A DNA stretch of 51,549 bases, taken from the IMG/VR virus record IMGVR_UViG_3300027752_000027, positions 1 through 51,549 of that record, one strand, 5' to 3'. Positions within the stretch are counted from its first letter, which is position 1. The number at the start of each line of letters is the position of its first letter. Below the pieces are notes generated by a model, which ran no database searches, was not told where the DNA came from, and saw only the letters and a list, made by a program, of their open reading frames with translations. This document shows, in pieces, positions 5,392 through 31,332 of the stretch. Origin of the DNA: a virus. Position numbers and translations under genes: made by a program.

Positions 5392-6128
5392 CAATATTGA
5401 TCCACTGGAATGAATGTGCATTCCTTCTGTTGTTTTTTCTTCTCTTCACGGTACTTCCTTTGATACTCTAGTATCTTTTCACGATTCTCTTGTCGATACT
5501 TCTTAAAGTATTCATCCGTCTTTTCACGATTATTTTCATAGTACTTCTTCTGCTTCTCTAGTAACTTTTCACGATTTTCTTCACGGTACTTCTTAGCGTA
5601 CTTCTTAGAGTATTCAATCGTCTTTTCACGATTCTCTTCACGGTACTTCTTAGCGTATTCAATCCTCTTTTCACGATTCTCTTCATAGTAATTCTTGTTC
5701 TTCTTTAGTACCTTTTCACGATTCTCTTCATAATAATTCTTGTTCTTCTTTAGTACCTTTGCACGATTATTTTTATAGTACTTCTTACCATGTATTGACT
5801 GGTATTCGGTAGTCTCACACAATCCATGCTTCCAATTCGGATTATCTTTACCATACAATGTTGGTGGTGGGAATTGGGTAATAACATTATAATACTTATC
5901 CCAACACCTCTCCTTCCTATTTTTAAGAAGGTCAGATTCCAACTGCATCATCTCATCTGGCGTACCATAGGCAAGAATGCGCCTACGGAATCCTTTGGGT
6001 GCAATCTTAAACGATTCCATAATGGATGATGAATGGGTGTAACCATCATCAAGTGTGCCTTTGTGATAACCGATATAGTACATACTATTCTTGGAATCAT
6101 ACCACATATAAACGAATGCTTCACTCAT
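5391..6128 (-). CDS. GIY-YIG nuclease-like protein with a long repeat tail, 245 aa
   Basis: Residues 6-24 carry the GIY-YIG pattern (VYMWY ... YYIGYHKG) of site-specific nucleases, with an arginine helix about residues 45-52 (GFRRRIL). Residues 92-102 (YGKDNPNWKHG) resemble a NUMOD3-type DNA-binding motif, as in free-standing phage homing endonucleases. From residue 121 to 229 come seven units of about 15 residues, each starting NR(E/A)K and ending YYEE or YREE, giving a highly charged helix. The last 15 residues are unique. Coupled to the Dam-like gene upstream (ATGA). Homing endonuclease is the best guess; activity and target are unknown. Confidence 0.7.
   Translation of the reverse strand: MSEAFVYMWYDSKNSMYYIGYHKGTLDDGYTHSSSIMESFKIAPKGFRRRILAYGTPDEMMQLESDLLKNRKERCWDKYYNVITQFPPPTLYGKDNPNWKHGLCETTEYQSIHGKKYYKNNRAKVLKKNKNYYEENREKVLKKNKNYYEENREKRIEYAKKYREENREKTIEYSKKYAKKYREENREKLLEKQKKYYENNREKTDEYFKKYRQENREKILEYQRKYREEKKKQQKECTFIPVDQY
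5442..5768 (-). repeat. Intragenic 45-base tandem repeats
   Basis: Seven degenerate units of 45 bases (one of 57, from a duplicated 12-base piece) inside the GIY-YIG gene. The plus-strand signature is TTTTCACGATTCTCTTC, repeated with TACTT/CTTCTTA between. Two neighbouring units (about 5695-5790) are nearly identical in sequence, a sign of recent expansion. They encode a charged helical stalk. Confidence 0.85.
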
Positions 6129-7027
6129 CCAAAATCCAATGTCGCTAAGTGTGATTCTCTATTGTAGTTTGATAGCAACAACTCTTGTCGCTTCTTCTCG
6201 TTCTCACGATAGTTCTTGCCCGAATGCATTGTGTATGTCAAGTCCCACGACTCAGGATACCATTGCTTCCATAGTTCTATCAGTTCGGGGTTTGAGTCAT
6301 AGGTTATCAGCATCCGCCCCGCTTGCTTTTGCGATGTCGCTTGACAATCTTCGTAAAACTTTAGGTGATTAAATCCCTTGTGCATTTCACCGTTCTTGCC
6401 ATACAGGATAGATTTTCCATTACTGCCTACCTTATCATAGGGTGGGTCAAGAAACACCAGTGTGGACGCTGTGCTGCGCTCTAAGAGGGTACTATAGTCC
6501 TGATTAGTGATCTTCCAATCCTTGATGTGATGACCGTATGCTTCCAACTTGCTGCACTGCAATACGCTGAAGTTTGACGCACATGCTTGCTTGGATAATG
6601 TGCCTGACTCACTGAGTCCAGAGAACGACATCTTGTTTAAGCACCACCATGCTTGACCAATCTTATGTCGTGAATTTGCATTCATTACATCAACGCTTGC
6701 AAGTACGTCTTTGCACTCTGTAAACAAAGCACGATGACCATCTTCGCCTTTCTCTTCTGCGATAAGTTTCTTCGCCATCATTTCATCACCAAACTTTTTG
6801 GGGTCTGCTTGAAGTGCAGTCCAAAAGCAATAGAGATTGTAGTAGAGGTCGTTGATCCATATCTTTGCATCGGGGTTCGCTTGCGAGAATGCAAACGCCA
6901 TACTACCACCCCCAACAAAGGGTTCGCGATACTCTGTAACACCATGTGGTGTCTTGGGCATTAGGAACTTTATTGCGCGACTCTTGCCACCAGGATATCG
7001 AACCGGAGTTGTTAGTTTTCTATTCAT
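6125..7027 (-). CDS. dam: Dam-like DNA adenine N6-methyltransferase (D12 class), 300 aa
   Basis: Methylates adenine in DNA with S-adenosylmethionine. The D12-class order of motifs is present: RYPGGKSRAI near the start (SAM-binding motif X/I), REPFVGGGSMA about residues 35-45, NDLYYN, CLNKMSFSG, and the catalytic LDPPYDK in the C-terminal half. Length is slightly above the usual 260-280. I start at the ATG at 7027, because the frame's upstream ATG (7036) overlaps the -10 box of promoter B1. Its transcript would have almost no leader. Probably protects phage DNA from restriction. Confidence 0.9.
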   Translation of the reverse strand: MNRKLTTPVRYPGGKSRAIKFLMPKTPHGVTEYREPFVGGGSMAFAFSQANPDAKIWINDLYYNLYCFWTALQADPKKFGDEMMAKKLIAEEKGEDGHRALFTECKDVLASVDVMNANSRHKIGQAWWCLNKMSFSGLSESGTLSKQACASNFSVLQCSKLEAYGHHIKDWKITNQDYSTLLERSTASTLVFLDPPYDKVGSNGKSILYGKNGEMHKGFNHLKFYEDCQATSQKQAGRMLITYDSNPELIELWKQWYPESWDLTYTMHSGKNYRENEKKRQELLLSNYNRESHLATLDFG

Positions 7028-7034
7028 ACACACC

Positions 7035-7062
7035 ATTATAAAGATTCAAGATGATAAGTCAA
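7035..7062 (-). promoter_or_regulatory. Sigma70-type promoter, family B copy 1
   Basis: TTGACT-16-TATAAT on the minus strand, followed by GGTGTGTATGAATAGA, the downstream sequence also seen at copies B3 and B6. The dam start codon is the ATG inside this conserved downstream sequence. Confidence 0.85.
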
Positions 7063-8194: not shown

Positions 8195-8767
8195 CTATGC
8201 GCGAGTCTTTGGGAATACTTTTTGAACAGGTTCTGTGTCAAACTCTTTAAACTCTCCACCACGATTCAAGCACCCGCCCATAACTTCTACTAACATTTCT
8301 TGGAAGTCTGTCAAATCAATAACGGTGAGAGAAGTTTCTGGATACATCTCATCCTTGTAGTAAAGTTGTTTACCTTCTATCATTTCGTTAACCAAATCTT
8401 TATATACGAGGATACCAAAACTATAGAGGTCTGCTGATTCTAGGGAGACTAACCGACCTTCCATTAATTGAGGACGGACATCGTTATTATCAACTATCCA
8501 CACCGAATTGATTTTCACATTTCTTTCCACCACACCACTTGATGGAAACCAAGACAACACACCCAAGTACAAATTGGTGCAGTTCTTCTCGCCCTTGAGA
8601 TATCCCATTACGATGGACACCACGTTTTCTTCATCGTTTGCAATCAACCACTCTTGTTCATCCAGGGTCTGGATTACAAACGGAACTGGTTGTGGGGGTG
8701 TAGTCGCGTTAGCATGCAAGGCAGTGCCGAGTACTAGTGCGAGTGCTGTTGATTTAAATATATTCAT
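8195..8767 (-). CDS. Secreted (periplasmic) protein of unknown function, 190 aa
   Basis: The N-terminus has Lys followed by a hydrophobic core (about residues 7-17) and an Ala-x-Ala site near residue 22 (LHANA), a classical Sec signal peptide. The mature part is acidic with two cysteines that could pair in the periplasm. I prefer the ATG at 8767, eight bases after an AGGA site, over the one two codons upstream. A phage protein sent to the periplasm could act on the envelope or exclude other phages; the sequence does not decide. Confidence 0.75.
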   Translation of the reverse strand: MNIFKSTALALVLGTALHANATTPPQPVPFVIQTLDEQEWLIANDEENVVSIVMGYLKGEKNCTNLYLGVLSWFPSSGVVERNVKINSVWIVDNNDVRPQLMEGRLVSLESADLYSFGILVYKDLVNEMIEGKQLYYKDEMYPETSLTVIDLTDFQEMLVEVMGGCLNRGGEFKEFDTEPVQKVFPKTRA

Positions 8768-8810: not shown

Positions 8811-9683
8811 TCACACAAGACCTAACCTTGCCTTTGTCTCACTATATGCCTGAACAACTACCGACTTTCCACCGACATTTGGTGCGCCCATATTGGTGAC
8901 ATAGTTTGACCAGTCGATAGATTCGAATACCTTCCTGACATATGGTTTTGAGGTTTTGAATACATAATGCGTGGTAGTCTCTGGGTCAACCGAATCCATC
9001 TCGCAGACACCAATCTTGCCCCAATACTTCAAAGCAAAGTCCCAATACTCTCTTTTCTTTATCTGCTTCCTCACCTCTGCGCGTCTTTGGACATTATCGC
9101 AAGTTAGAAATAGTTCAAAATCTTCGTGGGTAGTTGGTGGTCTTGTCCGTATCCTAATGTCAGTCAGTCCCGTTATGGGTACGCTGCTCCAAATCTGGGC
9201 GCAACAGTTGACATCGTAAGGTTTCCCATCGCTGGTGAAACTGAACTTGGGTACTTCTTCACTGTAGTAAAGACCAAATGATTTGTCGAGTTGATACTGA
9301 ACCTTCCAAGAGGACATAAACTTTTGGGGTATTATGAATGCAATCACTTCGCTAAAGGTTGCTGCCTTGTTGAAGAACCCCTTTGCCAACGGATTCATAT
9401 ACCCCGAACCGAAAGGTGGGTTGCCTATCGTTAGCACCCTGATTGGGTTGTACAGTGGATGGTATTCTGATTCGTATTCAAAAAAATCTTGCTGTATAAT
9501 ATTCTCTCCCTCTGGGGCGAGGTCAAGCGCAATGGTTTTATCTGGTAAGTAACTCAGGAAGTTACCAGAACCAGCAGAAGGTTCTACTATCTGGTCAAAT
9601 GATGAGAAGTCACAAATCTCGTCAACCTTTTTGGAGAACGACTCTGCGACTTCTGGCGTGGTGTAAAACTTATCAAGACCCAT
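8811..9683 (-). CDS. N6-adenine DNA methyltransferase, 290 aa
   Basis: SAM-binding motif I is VEPSAGSGNF (about residues 33-42) and the catalytic motif IV is NPPF(G) (about 88-92), the gamma-type order of N6-adenine methylases. The N-terminal YTTP-(x)5-F is typical of this group. The ATG at 9683 overlaps the stop of the GIY-YIG gene (TAATG), so the two are translationally coupled. No target-recognition domain is obvious beyond the C-terminal 100 residues. Together with the coupled GIY-YIG protein it could be a restriction-modification pair, or an anti-restriction methylase next to a homing-type nuclease. Confidence 0.8.
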   Translation of the reverse strand: MGLDKFYTTPEVAESFSKKVDEICDFSSFDQIVEPSAGSGNFLSYLPDKTIALDLAPEGENIIQQDFFEYESEYHPLYNPIRVLTIGNPPFGSGYMNPLAKGFFNKAATFSEVIAFIIPQKFMSSWKVQYQLDKSFGLYYSEEVPKFSFTSDGKPYDVNCCAQIWSSVPITGLTDIRIRTRPPTTHEDFELFLTCDNVQRRAEVRKQIKKREYWDFALKYWGKIGVCEMDSVDPETTTHYVFKTSKPYVRKVFESIDWSNYVTNMGAPNVGGKSVVVQAYSETKARLGLV

Positions 9684-10318
9684 TAAAAAGAGTTTCCTTT
9701 CTGTACACACAAAATTGGTTTGTGCTTGTATTTAGTGATAAACTCGTTGGTCACCATTTCTTCAGCATCTCTTGCTATGGATACTGCAACTTTTTGCGAT
9801 TGATTAAATCTAGTGATGATTTTATACTCTTTCTCCAATTTGATGGCAAATATCTCTACCTCTATTCCATTTTTGAGTGCGGTGTAGTTGCACTCGCTGA
9901 TGACATAGTTAGTTGACGAGCAAGAACCTTTTTTCATTGCCTTGCGAGTACCGCAGTTGTAAGATGCATACCTAGATTTTATTGTGGTCGTGGTCATTCC
10001 TATCTTGACTATTTTTTTGTCGTAAGATAAGAAATATATGTATTCTCCACTATTATCGTCAAATAGGGAATCGTCTTGGACGTACTCTACCAATTTTCCT
10101 TCAAAATCTTGCCCGTCAATAAATGACCTTTTGGATTCTGGGAAATTTTCTTCAATGTTGAGTACTCCATGTGCTACTTTGACCGCAGGTTCCCCAAGAG
10201 TCTTAACAAAACTAGAGACTGAAGGTTGAGATTTGTGGTCAAACTTAAACCCTCTACTATTTTGATATTTTGCTATCTCCTCGTAGATGCTTGAATCAGC
10301 GATTTTTGGATACTTCAT
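9683..10318 (-). CDS. GIY-YIG family protein (T5orf172-like), 211 aa
   Basis: Residues about 93-135 carry YIYFL ... KIVKIGMT ... IKSRYASYNCGTR, the short GIY-YIG variant found in T5orf172-type proteins. The N-terminal 85 residues are unrecognised. It is the first gene after promoter A5, with a GAGGGAA ribosome binding site. It may cleave DNA; the coupling to an adenine methylase suggests a joint role. Confidence 0.7.
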   Translation of the reverse strand: MKYPKIADSSIYEEIAKYQNSRGFKFDHKSQPSVSSFVKTLGEPAVKVAHGVLNIEENFPESKRSFIDGQDFEGKLVEYVQDDSLFDDNSGEYIYFLSYDKKIVKIGMTTTTIKSRYASYNCGTRKAMKKGSCSSTNYVISECNYTALKNGIEVEIFAIKLEKEYKIITRFNQSQKVAVSIARDAEEMVTNEFITKYKHKPILCVQKGNSF

Positions 10319-17656: not shown

Positions 17657-17684
17657 ATTATAAGCATTCAGGATGGGATGTCAA
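17657..17684 (-). promoter_or_regulatory. Sigma70-type promoter, family B copy 3
   Basis: TTGACA-16-TATAAT, perfect at both boxes, then AGTGTGTATGAATAGAG. The -35 box overlaps the last codons of the Mom-like gene. It drives the primase-like gene, dCMP deaminase and MazG. Confidence 0.9.
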
Positions 17685-18271
17685 GACCTAAGTTTGAATG
17701 TGTAGCAATACTTGGGTTTCAATACTACTGGTTCTAAAAGACCCATCTCTAACTTCTCCCTTAGTTTTTTAACAAAGGGTTTATATTCTCCTTTGTACTT
17801 GGTTCTTAGAGCCCTTGAGTGATACACCCTTCCTGTATCCACATCTTTAAATGCCTTGTCTGCTCCGCTCATGCCTGCTAAAGTAAAGTTAGAAGCTTTG
17901 TAGATGACTCCTGAATGTCCGTGATTGGGATCGGCATAAGACACTACAACCTTAACCTCTGGGGAGTTTTTCTTCAACCATCGTAGTGTGTACCCTATGA
18001 CTCTGCTCTCGCTGTTTCTCAGGCAGTCATCTAATAGGACAAGTCTACGGAGTTCTAAAACTTCCGACTCAGTATCCCCAAACTTCTTCCATGCCGTAGT
18101 AGACATTTGCCCAAAAAGCACAGCGCCTACTTGCCTCTCTTCGTGCGTCACTGTAAAACAGTAGTTAGACTTAACCCCATTGATACTTTTAGAATAGTGG
18201 TTCTCCTCAATGAATGCAGAAACATCTTTTCTATCGCAGGGTGTAATGCACAACTCCTTTGCCTTTATCAT
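17681..18271 (-). CDS. Mom-like DNA-modification acyltransferase (GNAT fold), 196 aa
   Basis: Phage Mu Mom adds a carbamoylmethyl group to adenine N6 in DNA and blocks many restriction enzymes. This protein shares the Mom layout: NHYSKS near residues 24-29, ELRRLVLLDD (about 73-82), NSESRVIGYTLRWLKK (86-101), VVVSYADPNHGHSGVIYKASNF (in the range 108-129). The similarity to Mom as I recall it is strongest in NSESR and YxASNF. No Com-like regulator is seen. Its ATG overlaps the stop of DNA polymerase (ATGA), so it is made with the replisome. A plain N-acetyltransferase of unknown target is the alternative. Confidence 0.75.
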   Translation of the reverse strand: MIKAKELCITPCDRKDVSAFIEENHYSKSINGVKSNYCFTVTHEERQVGAVLFGQMSTTAWKKFGDTESEVLELRRLVLLDDCLRNSESRVIGYTLRWLKKNSPEVKVVVSYADPNHGHSGVIYKASNFTLAGMSGADKAFKDVDTGRVYHSRALRTKYKGEYKPFVKKLREKLEMGLLEPVVLKPKYCYTFKLRS

Positions 18272-23448: not shown

Positions 23449-23523
23449 TGGCTGGCAAGGTTGGATTCGAACCAACATATCACAAATTAACAGTTTGCTG
23501 AATTACCTATCTCCCACTCGCCA
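23449..23523 (-). tRNA. tRNA-Asn (anticodon GTT)
   Basis: A 75-base cloverleaf with encoded CCA. Acceptor TGGCGAG pairs with CTTGCCA (one G-T); anticodon stem GCAAA/TTTGT with loop CTGTTAA (anticodon GTT); T-arm GTTGG-TTCGAAT-CCAAC. The D-stem is only three pairs (GGA/TTC type, one G-T), which is slightly weak. The only tRNA gene I found in the window. Confidence 0.88.
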
Positions 23524-25476: not shown

Positions 25477-26676
25477 CTATTTTGCATCAACTCGTTCGTC
25501 TTCATCTGTCTGACCGACAGTCTCGTCCAGTTTGGTGTAGAGGTCGATGAAGGCAACCTTGGTCTCTTCGTCAAATCGGTTTGTACATTTTGTGACTGCA
25601 TCCATGCGGTCACCAAAGATGGCAAAGCATTTAACAATGTGGACAAGTCTGCGAGTCGAGATAATTTCGTCAACTCCACCATCCGCAAATGTTTTACGAA
25701 TGATGTCGCCCCAGTCTACAAGTTTCTTGATAAATTCAGGATCATCGACACCGACATCCACCGCCAACTTTTGGAGGATTTTGGTCTCAATGGCAGGTGA
25801 TGGGTATTCCTGCTCGCAAGTGATAGGGTAGCGTTCGAGGAATGCTTCGTTCAGCACGTTAGTGCCGATGAATCGTCCATCGTCAGAACCTTTGCCTTTA
25901 GTGTTAGCAGTTGCGACAATAGTGAAACCTTCTTTCGGTTGAATAAATTCACCAGTTTTCTTGATGAAGTATCCATTACCTTCAAGGATAGACTGGAGAC
26001 ACATGACCTTTGCGGCATTCGCAAGGTCAATTTCGTCCAAAAGTGCAACTGCACCACGTTCCATTGCAGTGATAATTGGACCTTTAAAGAATTTGGTCTC
26101 GCCATTGACAAGTCGGAATCCACCGATAAGGTCGTCTTCATCAGTTTCGACTGTAAAGTTGACTCGGATGACTTCGCGTTTTAGTGCGGCACATGCCTGT
26201 TCAACCATAAAGGTTTTTCCATTACCAGAAAGACCAGTCACAAAGATGGGATAAAACATTTTAGATTTGATGACCTGCTTGACAGTGACAAAGTTGCCAA
26301 AGGGAACAAAGAGTTCATCTTTTTCTGGGACAAGGTTTTCTGTGAATCCATTGGTTCGCATTGAAAGACTATCCGCAACAATAGGTTGAGAAGTTATGAT
26401 TTGCTCAGTCTGAGTCGGAACCTTTACCTTCACAGATTTTTGTGTCTTGACTTTCTTGGATTTTTTTGACCCAGAAGAAGCAATGGTAGAAAAATCTGCG
26501 ATAGGTGGAAAGTTGTATTCTCCGTGACCGATTTTATTATCCGGATGGATAACCTTGAAAACTGTCGTGATGTTGTATTCATTCGCGACTTCCATAACTT
26601 GCTTACGCGATATCGCGCAGGGAGTGTCTCCGTACTTTTCGCGCAAGAGTGCAACTAACTTTTCTGACTTATTCAT
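25477..26676 (-). CDS. CobS/MoxR-like AAA+ ATPase, 399 aa
   Basis: AAA+ ATPase of the CobS/MoxR type. Walker A GLSGNGKT (148-155), Walker B ALLDEID (211-217), sensor region IVATANTKGKGSDD and a Leu-Glu-Arg-Tyr arginine-finger region. Residues 1-60 look like a small DNA-binding-like domain, residues 65-95 a Lys-rich linker. It pairs with the CobT-like VWA protein at 27407-29731. No cobalamin gene is present, so a remodelling chaperone (MoxR-VWA type) is more likely than cobalt chelation. Confidence 0.88.
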   Translation of the reverse strand: MNKSEKLVALLREKYGDTPCAISRKQVMEVANEYNITTVFKVIHPDNKIGHGEYNFPPIADFSTIASSGSKKSKKVKTQKSVKVKVPTQTEQIITSQPIVADSLSMRTNGFTENLVPEKDELFVPFGNFVTVKQVIKSKMFYPIFVTGLSGNGKTFMVEQACAALKREVIRVNFTVETDEDDLIGGFRLVNGETKFFKGPIITAMERGAVALLDEIDLANAAKVMCLQSILEGNGYFIKKTGEFIQPKEGFTIVATANTKGKGSDDGRFIGTNVLNEAFLERYPITCEQEYPSPAIETKILQKLAVDVGVDDPEFIKKLVDWGDIIRKTFADGGVDEIISTRRLVHIVKCFAIFGDRMDAVTKCTNRFDEETKVAFIDLYTKLDETVGQTDEDERVDAK

Positions 26677-27406: not shown

Positions 27407-29731
27407 CTATGCTATTCTCTTTGCTAACTCAGTCAGCATTTTGCGAGAATTTTTGGATGAGTTTTGCGACCTAGAAAATGCAGTTCGCAGTTTCGCTTTG
27501 CTCAATGACCCTGCTTCAACCGTTTCCATTTTGTTAGATACAACACTCATCGATTTTGAACCGATGACGAAAACCTCATCGTAGCAGACTGCATCCGTAA
27601 CGTGACACCATCCTTGCTTTTTGACGCTGTCCCAGTCACCAGAAGGTTCGACATAGTTCCTACCAAATCCGCGCAAGGTGTTTCCTACATATTCAATGTC
27701 CCACTTTCGCTGCTTCTCAATCCTGTATCCTATCAGGTTTCCACCAACATAGTCGCGATACATGTTGAATATGATTTCGGTTTCGGTAGGCATTTGACCT
27801 GATAGACGTTTAGTCAACTGGTAAGTTTTTTTGTTGTGCGGATTTTTAACCGTGATGAAAGGGGTTTTTTTACGGTCATACATATTTTGACCCAAGGCGA
27901 ATAATCTCCTGCGAGAGCCGCCAACGTGAGTTTTTACACCGACATGTGATGAATCGCCATCCGATAATATGAATGTGTTCAGGACTTCAATGTTGTATTT
28001 TTTGCGGAATGCTATACCAAGAGGCATTGCGACCAGCATCATAATATTCAATGGTGTGCCGCCCAAGCAAAATAGTCGTGGCATTTGGCATTGGTAACGA
28101 TATTTGTATGCACATAAATCAGAGTCGAATTTCAAGACTCTTGCCTTTGTTCCCTTTGACGCATATCGAAAGTATGTCGCGAGCAAAGACTTTATCATCA
28201 TGGACATATCAGCAGCATTCATATGGTTGCTGAATAGTTCTATGAATCTTCCGTGACTTTTCATGTTGCAAGTTATCAAGTTGACATCTTCTTCGTCAGT
28301 GTATTCTGCTTGGTCTTCGAATTCTTGCCTGATTGCATCCGTGAATCCGTAGACTCTGTAAGGGACACCAATCTGTTTGCAGAACTGTGCGAGTAGGATG
28401 GTTTGCTCTACAGTCTCGTAGATGTAGTCGCACATTGATCCTGACATATCCAGATACATAATGAATCCGTGATTCTTGCCGTCTTCGACAACCGATACCT
28501 TGCGGAAGATATCGTCAGTCAGTTTGTAGTTGTTCATCTTCAAGGTATCAATGACACCAGTTTTTGAGATGCTAGTGCGAGCATATGCGCTTGCAGACTT
28601 TCGCATCTCAAATTCTTTGACCATGTGATTAACAGTTTTTTTGTTCTGTGATTGATATTCTTTGTAAAGTCTTCCACCCCAAGATTCAAGGTTTTCAACA
28701 TTTCCGCTTTCGTGATTATTTCCACCATACACGCGTTCTCCTCCGCGCAGTTCTTTAAGAACATCTTTGTATCCTATGACACGTTCTTTCCAGTTAGGCA
28801 TTGCGTCAACTGTAAGATTGTAAATTTCGCAGTCATCGTTGACAGTCATTTGATTTTCGATATTTTCGCGTAAAACTTCGTCAGTTTTAGACTCGATATT
28901 TTTATTGGTATCGTCAGATGCAGAAGTTGTGCCTCCTTCCTGACCACTATCGCCTGTAGAGTCATCCTCGGTTTCTGATTCCTCTTCACCTTCGCCCGAT
29001 TCTTCAGATTCGCCCCCGCTCACTTTCTCGTCTCCTGCGGATTCTGGTGAACCGTCTTGCGACTCGCCATCGTTGTCGCCTGAAGATGCCTCATACTCTT
29101 CAGTGTCGCCATCAGTGTCTTGTTCTGCTTGGTCTTCGTCAGATTCTTGCTGTTCTTCTTTTCGTTCCTCTTCTTTTTCAAGGCAGTAGTCGAATATTAT
29201 TTCTGCCGCTTTTTCTGCGTCATCCCAAGATTCTAATGCATCAAGCATCGGCAGGAATGTCTTCTCTTCCTCAGAGAAGATAACGCCAACAGATACACCA
29301 CATTTGTAATAGGTATTGATTCGGTCAATGAATCCCATTTTATTGATTGCCTTGATGTCTCCACCAAAGAACCCAGCCGCTAGCATTACACGATATGATT
29401 TGATAAAAGACCTTTTGAGACCTGGATACTTACGTTGTACCAGTTTCTCAATTCGTGCATCCTCGACAACATTCAGGTATGATTTGAATGCTGATCCGCG
29501 AGATGCATTGCAAACAGCATCGTGCCATCCGTCTTCTGGGGTAAATAGTGCGTGACCGACTTCGTGACCAACCAAATGGTCTTCAGTGTCCGGTGAAATG
29601 TCTTTCCAAATAGGGAGAGTCAATACGCGACTCTGGACATTAAAGGATGCCGTAGAGACATTGCCTTGAACTACTGTGATATTTTCAGTTGCGAGTAGTC
29701 GCGCTATCTGTGATTTTTGTACCGATTCCAT
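27407..29731 (-). CDS. CobT-like protein: metallopeptidase-type motif plus VWA domain, 774 aa
   Basis: HEVGH (56-60) is a zinc-peptidase HExxH motif, with NVVEDARIE (87-95) as the likely third ligand region. Residues about 184-275 are an extremely acidic, Glu/Asp/Ser/Gly-rich linker. The C-terminal half is a von Willebrand A domain with MIDAS motif DMSGS (428-432). This order is that of CobT/peptidase-like partners of CobS/MoxR ATPases. Probably works with the ATPase at 25477-26676 to remodel or cleave a protein target. First and only gene after promoter A8. Confidence 0.82.
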   Translation of the reverse strand: MESVQKSQIARLLATENITVVQGNVSTASFNVQSRVLTLPIWKDISPDTEDHLVGHEVGHALFTPEDGWHDAVCNASRGSAFKSYLNVVEDARIEKLVQRKYPGLKRSFIKSYRVMLAAGFFGGDIKAINKMGFIDRINTYYKCGVSVGVIFSEEEKTFLPMLDALESWDDAEKAAEIIFDYCLEKEEERKEEQQESDEDQAEQDTDGDTEEYEASSGDNDGESQDGSPESAGDEKVSGGESEESGEGEEESETEDDSTGDSGQEGGTTSASDDTNKNIESKTDEVLRENIENQMTVNDDCEIYNLTVDAMPNWKERVIGYKDVLKELRGGERVYGGNNHESGNVENLESWGGRLYKEYQSQNKKTVNHMVKEFEMRKSASAYARTSISKTGVIDTLKMNNYKLTDDIFRKVSVVEDGKNHGFIMYLDMSGSMCDYIYETVEQTILLAQFCKQIGVPYRVYGFTDAIRQEFEDQAEYTDEEDVNLITCNMKSHGRFIELFSNHMNAADMSMMIKSLLATYFRYASKGTKARVLKFDSDLCAYKYRYQCQMPRLFCLGGTPLNIMMLVAMPLGIAFRKKYNIEVLNTFILSDGDSSHVGVKTHVGGSRRRLFALGQNMYDRKKTPFITVKNPHNKKTYQLTKRLSGQMPTETEIIFNMYRDYVGGNLIGYRIEKQRKWDIEYVGNTLRGFGRNYVEPSGDWDSVKKQGWCHVTDAVCYDEVFVIGSKSMSVVSNKMETVEAGSLSKAKLRTAFSRSQNSSKNSRKMLTELAKRIA

Positions 29732-30080: not shown

Positions 30081-31190
30081 TTACGAGGGGGATAAATGTT
30101 GTCCGGAATATGTATTCACATTTCGGACATATTCGTGAGCATAGCATACTCTGCCTTGGTGTCGCATCATAAGTTCTTTGCTGTACTTGGTTTGATTTTC
30201 TTGCAGACTTTCGTAGTCGTCACGTTTTTGTTTGTTATGCGTAGTGGGTCTCCACTTTGTAGATGCTTCGCGATACTCTCCAAGTCTGGGGTGCGCGGTT
30301 TTACTAAAATATCGTTTACCCTCTGAAGTGTAAATTTCACCCATAGCATCAGACAGTCTCACCCCTATGCCCAACCCCTGAAAGTCGGGTAGGATGACAG
30401 TGCGGTGTCCTCGGTATCCGTTCTTCACACTGCCTGATGGAAAAGAAATTACAGCAGAAAATCCGACAGGTTGCCCTCGCCACATTGCGAGCCAGCATCT
30501 TGCACTTTTATTGATGTCTCCTGAGAGATAGTGATGGTCGCGGAACATTGACCATGCGCTGACGGAGCAAGGAACGATTTCCACCTCAATGTCTGGTCGC
30601 CTAAGTAACCTCCGATTTTCAACGGACTGGGATACTGTATCGTACACCCAATCAGGTTCTAACCACTCAAGAATATCATAGTGACATGTTGCGAATACTA
30701 AATTCTTGATACCCTTCTTACTCACATACTTCTTGATAGCAACTGAACAAGACCTTGCTACGTTTCTATCCACTACTGAAGTGAACTCATCTATGACTGC
30801 GCCATCTTGTATCCTACGCGCAAGGTCAGCACGAAACTGTTCACCGTTAGAAAGCACATGGTATGGTCGCATCCATGAAGGGATACTATTGAACCCCACT
30901 GATGACAACCTCTCTTCTGCATCGGTAGCATTCTCAAAGTGAGAACAGATTGCTTTATCGCCATCCCATTCGATTGCTTGTTCTTTCCCGAACTGGTCAA
31001 GCAAGGTAGACTTACCTGATCCAGACGGACCGACTATGACTCCTATGCCCCACTCTTTACCCATCGTCATCTCTCGGTCAATAGGGCTGATCTCTGGTGG
31101 ATCAAATGTAGTCGTGCCGTCAAACTCATAGTCAAACATTCGAGAGATTTCTGTGGTGATCTCGTCTGGGGTTACTCTGCTTGTCTTCAT
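30081..31190 (-). CDS. ABC-type ATPase fused to a GNAT acyltransferase domain, 369 aa
   Basis: N-terminal ABC ATPase: Walker A GPSGSGKST (54-62), signature LSNGEQ (113-118), Walker B AVIDEF (131-136) and H-loop TCH (168-170). C-terminal GNAT domain: FRDHHYLSG (216-224) and the acyl-CoA motif QGLGIG (271-276). There is no membrane domain, so it is not a transporter. The fusion recalls COG2401 (ABC ATPase plus predicted acetyltransferase). The HHYLSG motif is also like Mom-type GNATs, so nucleic acid may be the target. I start at 31190; a start at 31217 would overlap the 46-aa gene. Confidence 0.8.
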   Translation of the reverse strand: MKTSRVTPDEITTEISRMFDYEFDGTTTFDPPEISPIDREMTMGKEWGIGVIVGPSGSGKSTLLDQFGKEQAIEWDGDKAICSHFENATDAEERLSSVGFNSIPSWMRPYHVLSNGEQFRADLARRIQDGAVIDEFTSVVDRNVARSCSVAIKKYVSKKGIKNLVFATCHYDILEWLEPDWVYDTVSQSVENRRLLRRPDIEVEIVPCSVSAWSMFRDHHYLSGDINKSARCWLAMWRGQPVGFSAVISFPSGSVKNGYRGHRTVILPDFQGLGIGVRLSDAMGEIYTSEGKRYFSKTAHPRLGEYREASTKWRPTTHNKQKRDDYESLQENQTKYSKELMMRHQGRVCYAHEYVRNVNTYSGQHLSPS

Positions 31191-31191
31191 A

Positions 31192-31332
31192 TTACTTTTC
31201 ACTTTTAGGTTGATCACTTTTCACTTTTAGGTTGGTCACTTTATCTTTTTTAGACCCGAAACATTTTTCCCATCTTTCTGCTTCTTCTTTCGCAGATATA
31301 GTGGTAGGTCTTCTTTTGCTTCCCTTACTCAT
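31192..31332 (-). CDS. Small conserved phage protein (MSKGS family), 46 aa
   Basis: Begins MSKGSKRRP and has a Trp-Glu-(x)2-FG-KK centre, like a tiny protein of unknown function that recurs in phages of marine bacteria. The C-terminal tail is extended by a 19-base direct repeat. TGA/ATG neighbours within two bases. Confidence 0.65.
   Translation of the reverse strand: MSKGSKRRPTTISAKEEAERWEKCFGSKKDKVTNLKVKSDQPKSEK
31194..31234. repeat. 19-base direct repeat
   Basis: ACTTTTCACTTTTAGGTTG at 31194-31212 and again at 31216-31234 (22 bases apart, so out of frame). It covers the end of the 46-aa gene and creates the spurious upstream start of the ABC-GNAT frame. Confidence 0.85.

Follow-up and report, generated by a model that had tools for sequence, protein, structure and literature searches.

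The window (the whole stretch of DNA analysed, 51,549 nt, positions 1 to 51,549 of IMG/VR record IMGVR_UViG_3300027752_000027) is a fragment of a T4-like phage, with genes for UvsX, a DnaB-type helicase, clamp, clamp loader, late sigma factor, major head protein, sheath and terminase. Downstream of a gp46/gp47 (SbcC/SbcD-type) pair it encodes a fusion of an ABC-type ATPase and a GNAT acyltransferase, here called ABC-GNAT (Table 1). Within the interval of the fusion gene a frame is open on the minus strand only, the plus strand containing 15 stops, and the gene product matched phrog_11143 (E = 6.9e-117). The dN/dS ratios against close relatives on other viral contigs were 0.16 (L019), 0.11 (L020) and 0.11 (L021), and the gene is therefore under purifying selection; the locus on L020 is near-identical, with the same neighbours. 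Homologues were found in 51 annotated phage records, every one less than 60% identical to the window protein. Phages that carry the gene and have laboratory hosts include Lactococcus phage P335, Gordonia phages Jace and Yago84 and Aeromonas phage PX29. The phrog match, the phage records, the dN/dS values and the structural model described below confirmed that the frame is a real gene and not a chance one. No transporter or permease partner was found among the neighbouring genes examined, which are phage genes.

Table 1. Positions of the ABC-GNAT gene, its domains and motifs, and other features of the window.
Feature	Position	Strand	Basis
ABC-ATPase/GNAT fusion gene, 369 aa	30081..31190	(-)	ATG at 31190; possible GTG start at 31217
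ABC-type ATPase domain, residues 1-195	30606..31190	(-)	AlphaFold2 model, structural matches
Walker A GPSGSGKS, residues 54-61	31008..31031	(-)	G54, G57, G59, K60 invariant, n = 177
ABC signature LSNGEQ, residues 113-118	30837..30854	(-)	L113, S114, G116 invariant, n = 177
Walker B GAVIDE, residues 130-135, catalytic Glu135	30786..30803	(-)	D134, E135 invariant, n = 177
H-loop His170	30681..30683	(-)	Invariant, n = 177
GNAT acyltransferase domain, residues 200-358	30117..30593	(-)	Pfam, AlphaFold2 model, structural matches
HHYLSG, residues 219-224	30519..30536	(-)	Y221 invariant; H220 in 175/177
QGLGIG, acyl-CoA pyrophosphate-binding loop, residues 271-276	30363..30380	(-)	Q271 in 175/177; G272 invariant
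Mom homologue, 196 aa, putative second DNA acylator	17681..18271	(-)	PF25680 E 8.8e-40; phrog_1384 8.8e-53
Dam-type (D12) adenine DNA methyltransferase	6125..7036	(-)	PF02086 E 6.5e-27
Second methyltransferase-like protein	8811..9710	(-)	phrog_799 6.8e-11; no Pfam match
tRNA-Asn (GTT) gene	23449..23523	(-)	
AAA ATPase, CobS/MoxR-like	25477..26676	(-)	phrog_249 (named porphyrin biosynthesis) 8e-119
Large protein with VWA-like DMSGSM and metallopeptidase-like VGHEVGHAL motifs	27407..29731	(-)	phrog_459 8e-173

The AlphaFold2 model of the window protein, built from an 80-sequence alignment, had a mean pLDDT of 91.7 and a pTM of 0.87. Residues 1-195 adopted an ABC fold (against 1l2t, MJ0796: Z 13.2, rmsd 3.1 over 166 residues) and residues 200-358 a GNAT fold (against 1y9k: Z 14.6, rmsd 3.5 over 140 residues). 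The fold, Walker A, LSxGE, Walker B with its catalytic Glu and the H-loop place the first half in the ABC-ATPase superfamily; the fold and the Q/RxxGxG/A acyl-CoA loop place the second half among the GNATs (Pfam Acetyltransf_1, 21.1 bits, cut-off 20.7). The first-pass annotation had described an ABC-GNAT fusion with complete ABC motifs, a QGLGIG loop and no transporter domain, and had proposed structure prediction and a survey of phages as checks. Its description held on every one of these points, and the key residues of the ABC motifs proved to be invariant among 177 relatives. R120, R142 and D172 of the ATPase half were also invariant in this set, as were Y221, R263, P268 and G272 of the GNAT half. 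The two active sites are therefore constrained together, so both halves are kept active. The halves are encoded by separate adjacent genes in Tenacibaculum phage pT24 and in a number of phages of Streptococcus, Lactococcus and Oenococcus, which suggests that they cooperate as two proteins too.

Searches of Pfam, NCBIfam and PDB sequences with the window protein returned generic ABC or GNAT matches only, and the structure lists for the GNAT half (Foldseek, VIA) were headed by unspecific GNATs that did not indicate a substrate. The protein has its complete ABC motifs and fold in common with transporter ATPases such as MJ0796, but it lacks a membrane partner and is fused to an acyltransferase. 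Assignment as an ABC transporter ATPase was rejected, as the ABC_tran score of 23.1 bits was below the cut-off of 25 and no permease lies beside the gene. TmcA, the tRNA(Met) cytidine acetyltransferase, likewise joins an ATPase and a GNAT in one chain and uses acyl-CoA and ATP, and it ranked seventh in Foldseek (2zpa). ABC-GNAT is nevertheless very unlikely to be an RNA acyltransferase of this type, acting on tRNA or another RNA: TmcA, whose substrate is RNA, has a RecA-like helicase ATPase, whereas the ATPase half of the window protein matches ABC proteins; no TmcA or tRNA-binding Pfam domain was matched; and the genomic contexts described below are those of DNA modification. Membership in the TmcA family was rejected on the same domain evidence.

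Beyond the annotated phage records, patterns from the window protein matched 144 viral stretches and those from a Mu-like member 359, and relatives were encoded in 432 genome stretches of bacteria and archaea. The best 80 of these 432 (L100-L179) came mainly from Planctomycetota and Nonomuraea, and many adjoin a terminase gene, which marks them as probable prophages. Most loci of this set have ParB upstream, and terminase is often downstream.

For GNATs coupled with an ABC ATPase, exemplified by phage pT24, a modification of DNA bases of an acyl type not yet characterised has been predicted (Iyer 2021, citing Iyer 2013; PMC7824862). The pT24 protein was 38.3% identical to the window protein over 84% of the query (E = 5e-67), and this homology and the shared ABC/GNAT coupling place the window protein, here from a T4-like phage, in the same family with the same predicted role. 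In the part of that article available to us the account is a prediction only, and donor and partners are not mentioned (PMC7824862). Our literature search found no experiment on any member of the family. The word uncharacterised in the first-pass annotation is thus apt as regards experiment, but the family and its predicted DNA acylation were already in print (PMC7824862). For the COG2401-like label that the first-pass annotation gave the fusion type, a literature search returned no paper. The com slot, the mom swap and the PanD/CoA-transferase operon reported below are additions to that prediction.

Mom of phage Mu makes an acyl-type modification at N6 of adenine. In the Mu record mom lies directly behind com, the product of which is annotated as switching on mom translation. 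In Mu-like phages this place behind the activator is occupied by ABC-GNAT: a Com gene was directly upstream of ABC-GNAT in 37 of 43 non-redundant Mu-like loci, and the two Com proteins tested matched PF10122 (E = 9e-21 and 7e-16). The com region of Pseudomonas phage JD024, which has com-mom, was 70-83% identical in DNA to that preceding ABC-GNAT in four viral loci (L014, L219, L220 and L221). Viral contigs were then scanned with three Com sequences from Mu-like ABC-GNAT phages, and the gene following com was classified, with a Pfam check, in the best 80 loci, which were not thinned for redundancy. It encoded a methyltransferase in 68 loci (D12 type in 30, C5 type in 29 and N6/N4 type in 9), Mom in 5, ABC-GNAT in 3, a lectin-like protein in 2 and an unclassified protein in 2. 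Among these best loci, 73 of the 77 com partners other than ABC-GNAT were DNA methyltransferases or Mom.

An exchange of the two genes was seen in Porphyromonas phages 007a_Bg4 and 012a_381OKJP. Their flanks were 91.7-93.0% identical up to positions 8493 and 8935 of the compared stretches, and the match resumed, with 82.8% identity across 93 bases, at the close of the record. Between the flanks, one phage has a tail-module gene, ABC-GNAT and a formyltransferase-like gene, and a Mom homologue takes their place in the other; the ABC-GNAT cassette is exchanged exactly for mom. Where the first-pass annotation had left modification of nucleic acid or protein side by side, the com slot and this exchange strongly support nucleic acid, specifically DNA. 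We estimate a probability of about 0.72 that ABC-GNAT acylates phage DNA in an ATP-dependent manner, and this role, for a fusion family that is large and had already been noticed, has moved from a guess to a well-supported inference.

Acylation of a host or phage protein such as RNA polymerase or terminase for host takeover, with the ABC domain as a switch, appears unlikely. It would agree with the terminase genes downstream of ABC-GNAT in many lineages, with the action of phage GNATs such as Rac on RNA polymerase (PMC7824862), and with the presence of the protein acetyltransferases RimI and Naa50 among the nearest structures of the GNAT half. However, protein GNATs top almost any GNAT list, and both the company of DNA modifiers behind com and the exact exchange for mom would be left unexplained.

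Some further features of the com loci were observed. Across the best 80 (L393-L472), com mainly serves DNA methyltransferases and not Mom (68 loci, e.g. L397, L409 and L415). Lectin-like proteins directly follow com at L405:2690 and L446:1764 and were the only recurrent cargo there that is not a DNA modifier. Four of the 80 com genes precede unrelated genes, and Mu-like phages may use their right end for cargo in general. ASCH-like genes, predicted readers of modified bases, were present in some ABC-GNAT loci.

While ABC-GNAT occupies the place of Mom, kinship between the two was not significant by profile. The Pfam Mom model PF25680, which as a control recovered the other Mom of the window, gave no match to the window ABC-GNAT at E values up to 1, and an hhalign comparison of the ABC-GNAT family with Mom was not significant (P = 0.083). 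That alignment pairs the first strand, the first helix, HHY (with HYS of Mom) and the next two strands. The HHYLSG motif, called Mom-like in the first-pass annotation, is present and lines up, in that non-significant alignment, with the HY motif after the first helix of Mom; neither profile result supports a claim of homology to Mom. The systems have in common the GNAT fold, the genomic slot, the Com activator in Mu-like phages and an exchangeable cassette. They differ in that Mom has no ATPase and that the ParB module, PanD and CoA-transferase were seen with ABC-GNAT only. The window phage carries both putative DNA acylators; its mom overlaps the DNA polymerase gene and is not adjacent to ABC-GNAT.

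In most lineages a ParB-like gene, or its C-terminal module alone, abuts ABC-GNAT. A ParB_N protein overlapped or abutted the ABC-GNAT start from upstream in 95 of 194 non-redundant loci, and the C-terminal module of 35-40 aa was found at that position in 132. The module usually occurred without ParB_N in the 43 Mu-like loci (module in 40, ParB_N in 6), and in the two loci examined it formed free-standing beta-alpha-beta proteins of 42-49 aa directly before ABC-GNAT (L004:8576-8704 and L014:5606-5755). In Microbacterium phage Appa, the ParB next to Mom has a different C-terminal end. We infer from this arrangement that the module docks on ABC-GNAT as an adaptor, with ParB contributing DNA loading or the choice of site. 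ParB folds are known in fusion with methyltransferases and with acetyltransferases, and they bind a range of NTPs (PMC12704722). One of the free-standing module proteins carried the annotation "anti-CRISPR candidate".

The Jace-like lineage has, in order, ParB, ABC-GNAT, aspartate decarboxylase (PanD; PF02261, 2e-33) and a family-III CoA-transferase (PF02515, 2e-8), all genes overlapping or abutting. In viral loci, PanD adjoined ABC-GNAT in 26 of 29 cases and the CoA-transferase in 36 of 39, the other three ending at the contig edge there; the scan queries came from ABC-GNAT operons, several loci are near-copies, and more distant phage PanD may be missed. PanD retains Lys8, the Gly23-Ser24 cleavage site, Arg53, Thr56, Tyr57 and Asn69, which we take to have catalytic roles, and the half-size CoA-transferase has an invariant GDT. 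The simplest reading is that aspartate is converted to beta-alanine and this to a beta-alanyl-CoA donor in this one lineage, a reading that we hold tentatively for the family; PanD could alternatively supply pantothenate and CoA. Nothing relevant was found in a literature search on DNA modification together with phage aspartate decarboxylase and CoA-transferase, though the association with PanD or com may have been mentioned before. The same PanD match was observed on three viral contigs (L347, L348 and L355) with no ABC-GNAT, ParB or CoA-transferase nearby. At L181:5001-8261 and its near-copies (L182-L186 and L191), two tandem ABC-GNAT genes surround PanD and CoA-transferase in one operon; their products may be acylators that differ in specificity or may form a heterodimer.

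A formyltransferase-like protein adjoined ABC-GNAT in 22 of 194 loci. HPSLLP (HPSPLP in one) is conserved in it, as is the Asp of the N-H-D triad, but the Asn is replaced, which speaks against a classical amine formylase.

Conflict systems contain GNAT toxins and ABC or ParB proteins (PMC7641849, PMC10853773), and a defence or counter-defence module could be imagined in which ABC senses DNA ends or an invading phage, GNAT is the toxin and ParB the regulator. We consider this extremely improbable: ABC-GNAT is mostly phage-borne and adjoins terminase, replication or com genes, PanD and CoA-transferase resemble genes for making a donor and not immunity genes, and no antitoxin-like partner was recognised in the clade of the window protein.

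The window protein fell in a 41-member "solo" clade (SH-aLRT 98) of a 177-protein tree, and the loci of this clade sit among replication genes. ParB, Com, PanD, CoA-transferase and formyltransferase were not found beside the gene in this clade, nor, together with the tail module, anywhere in the window. ParB and PanD were absent genome-wide from the complete solo-branch phages PX29, VmeM-32 and P12024S, and from pT24 and TR-TP2, which have split genes and lie outside the tree. The window enzyme would therefore act alone or with other partners, and its special donor, if any, would be supplied by the host or by genes that lie beyond the fragment. PX29 encodes both Mom and ABC-GNAT, like the window phage. 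The distinctness of the clade, placed among replication genes without com or ParB, would also fit a change of substrate, to a free nucleotide or a replication protein, in a family that otherwise acylates DNA, only the fold being kept. This is highly improbable, since the active-site residues are all as in other clades and further DNA-modifying enzymes are encoded by both PX29 and the window phage. DNA acylation is thus the role assigned to the window copy, putatively, by homology at roughly 35-57% identity.

In the mechanism that we propose, the GNAT half would bind acyl-CoA through QGLGIG, and the HHY motif would lie close to the base whose exocyclic amine receives the acyl group. The ABC half has everything needed for ATP-sandwich dimerisation and hydrolysis and probably acts as a clamp on DNA or remodels it; ATP would thereby gate a pair of GNAT domains on the duplex, much as TmcA employs ATP with its tRNA. 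The ParB-like protein or C-terminal beta-alpha-beta module is probably the DNA-loading or site-choosing subunit in most lineages, and the clade of the window would work without it. The phage aspartate decarboxylase and half-size CoA-transferase would make beta-alanine and the beta-alanyl-CoA donor in one lineage, and in another the formyltransferase-like enzyme probably alters the transferred group. Most likely a small group is placed on the phage's own DNA and shields it from bacterial defences; the product would protect against restriction, as that of Mom does. A more specific proposal, which we regard as somewhat doubtful, is that the family, independently of Mom, writes a new hypermodified amino-acyl (beta-alanyl) DNA base by means of an ATP-hydrolysing ABC clamp, with formyltransferase-like reworking in other lineages.

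To our knowledge, no acyl-type DNA modifier other than Mom has a known product, and the origin of the Mom donor was long unsettled. ABC-GNAT would be a second phage system, and a widespread one: it has hundreds of loci and is common in Mu-like phages and in probable Planctomycetota prophages. It brings an attached ATPase and, in one lineage, an apparent donor pathway in the same operon, so that the identity of the acyl group, the donor chemistry and the reason for ATP become directly testable. Phage genes annotated as ABC iron-siderophore transporters or GNATs may, as these results suggest, be DNA modifiers.

Two further observations concern the surroundings of the gene in the window. The CobS/MoxR-like AAA ATPase lies near the large protein with VWA-like and metallopeptidase-like motifs, a possible pair of the chelatase or MoxR-VWA type, and the tRNA-Asn gene is located in the replication region of the phage.
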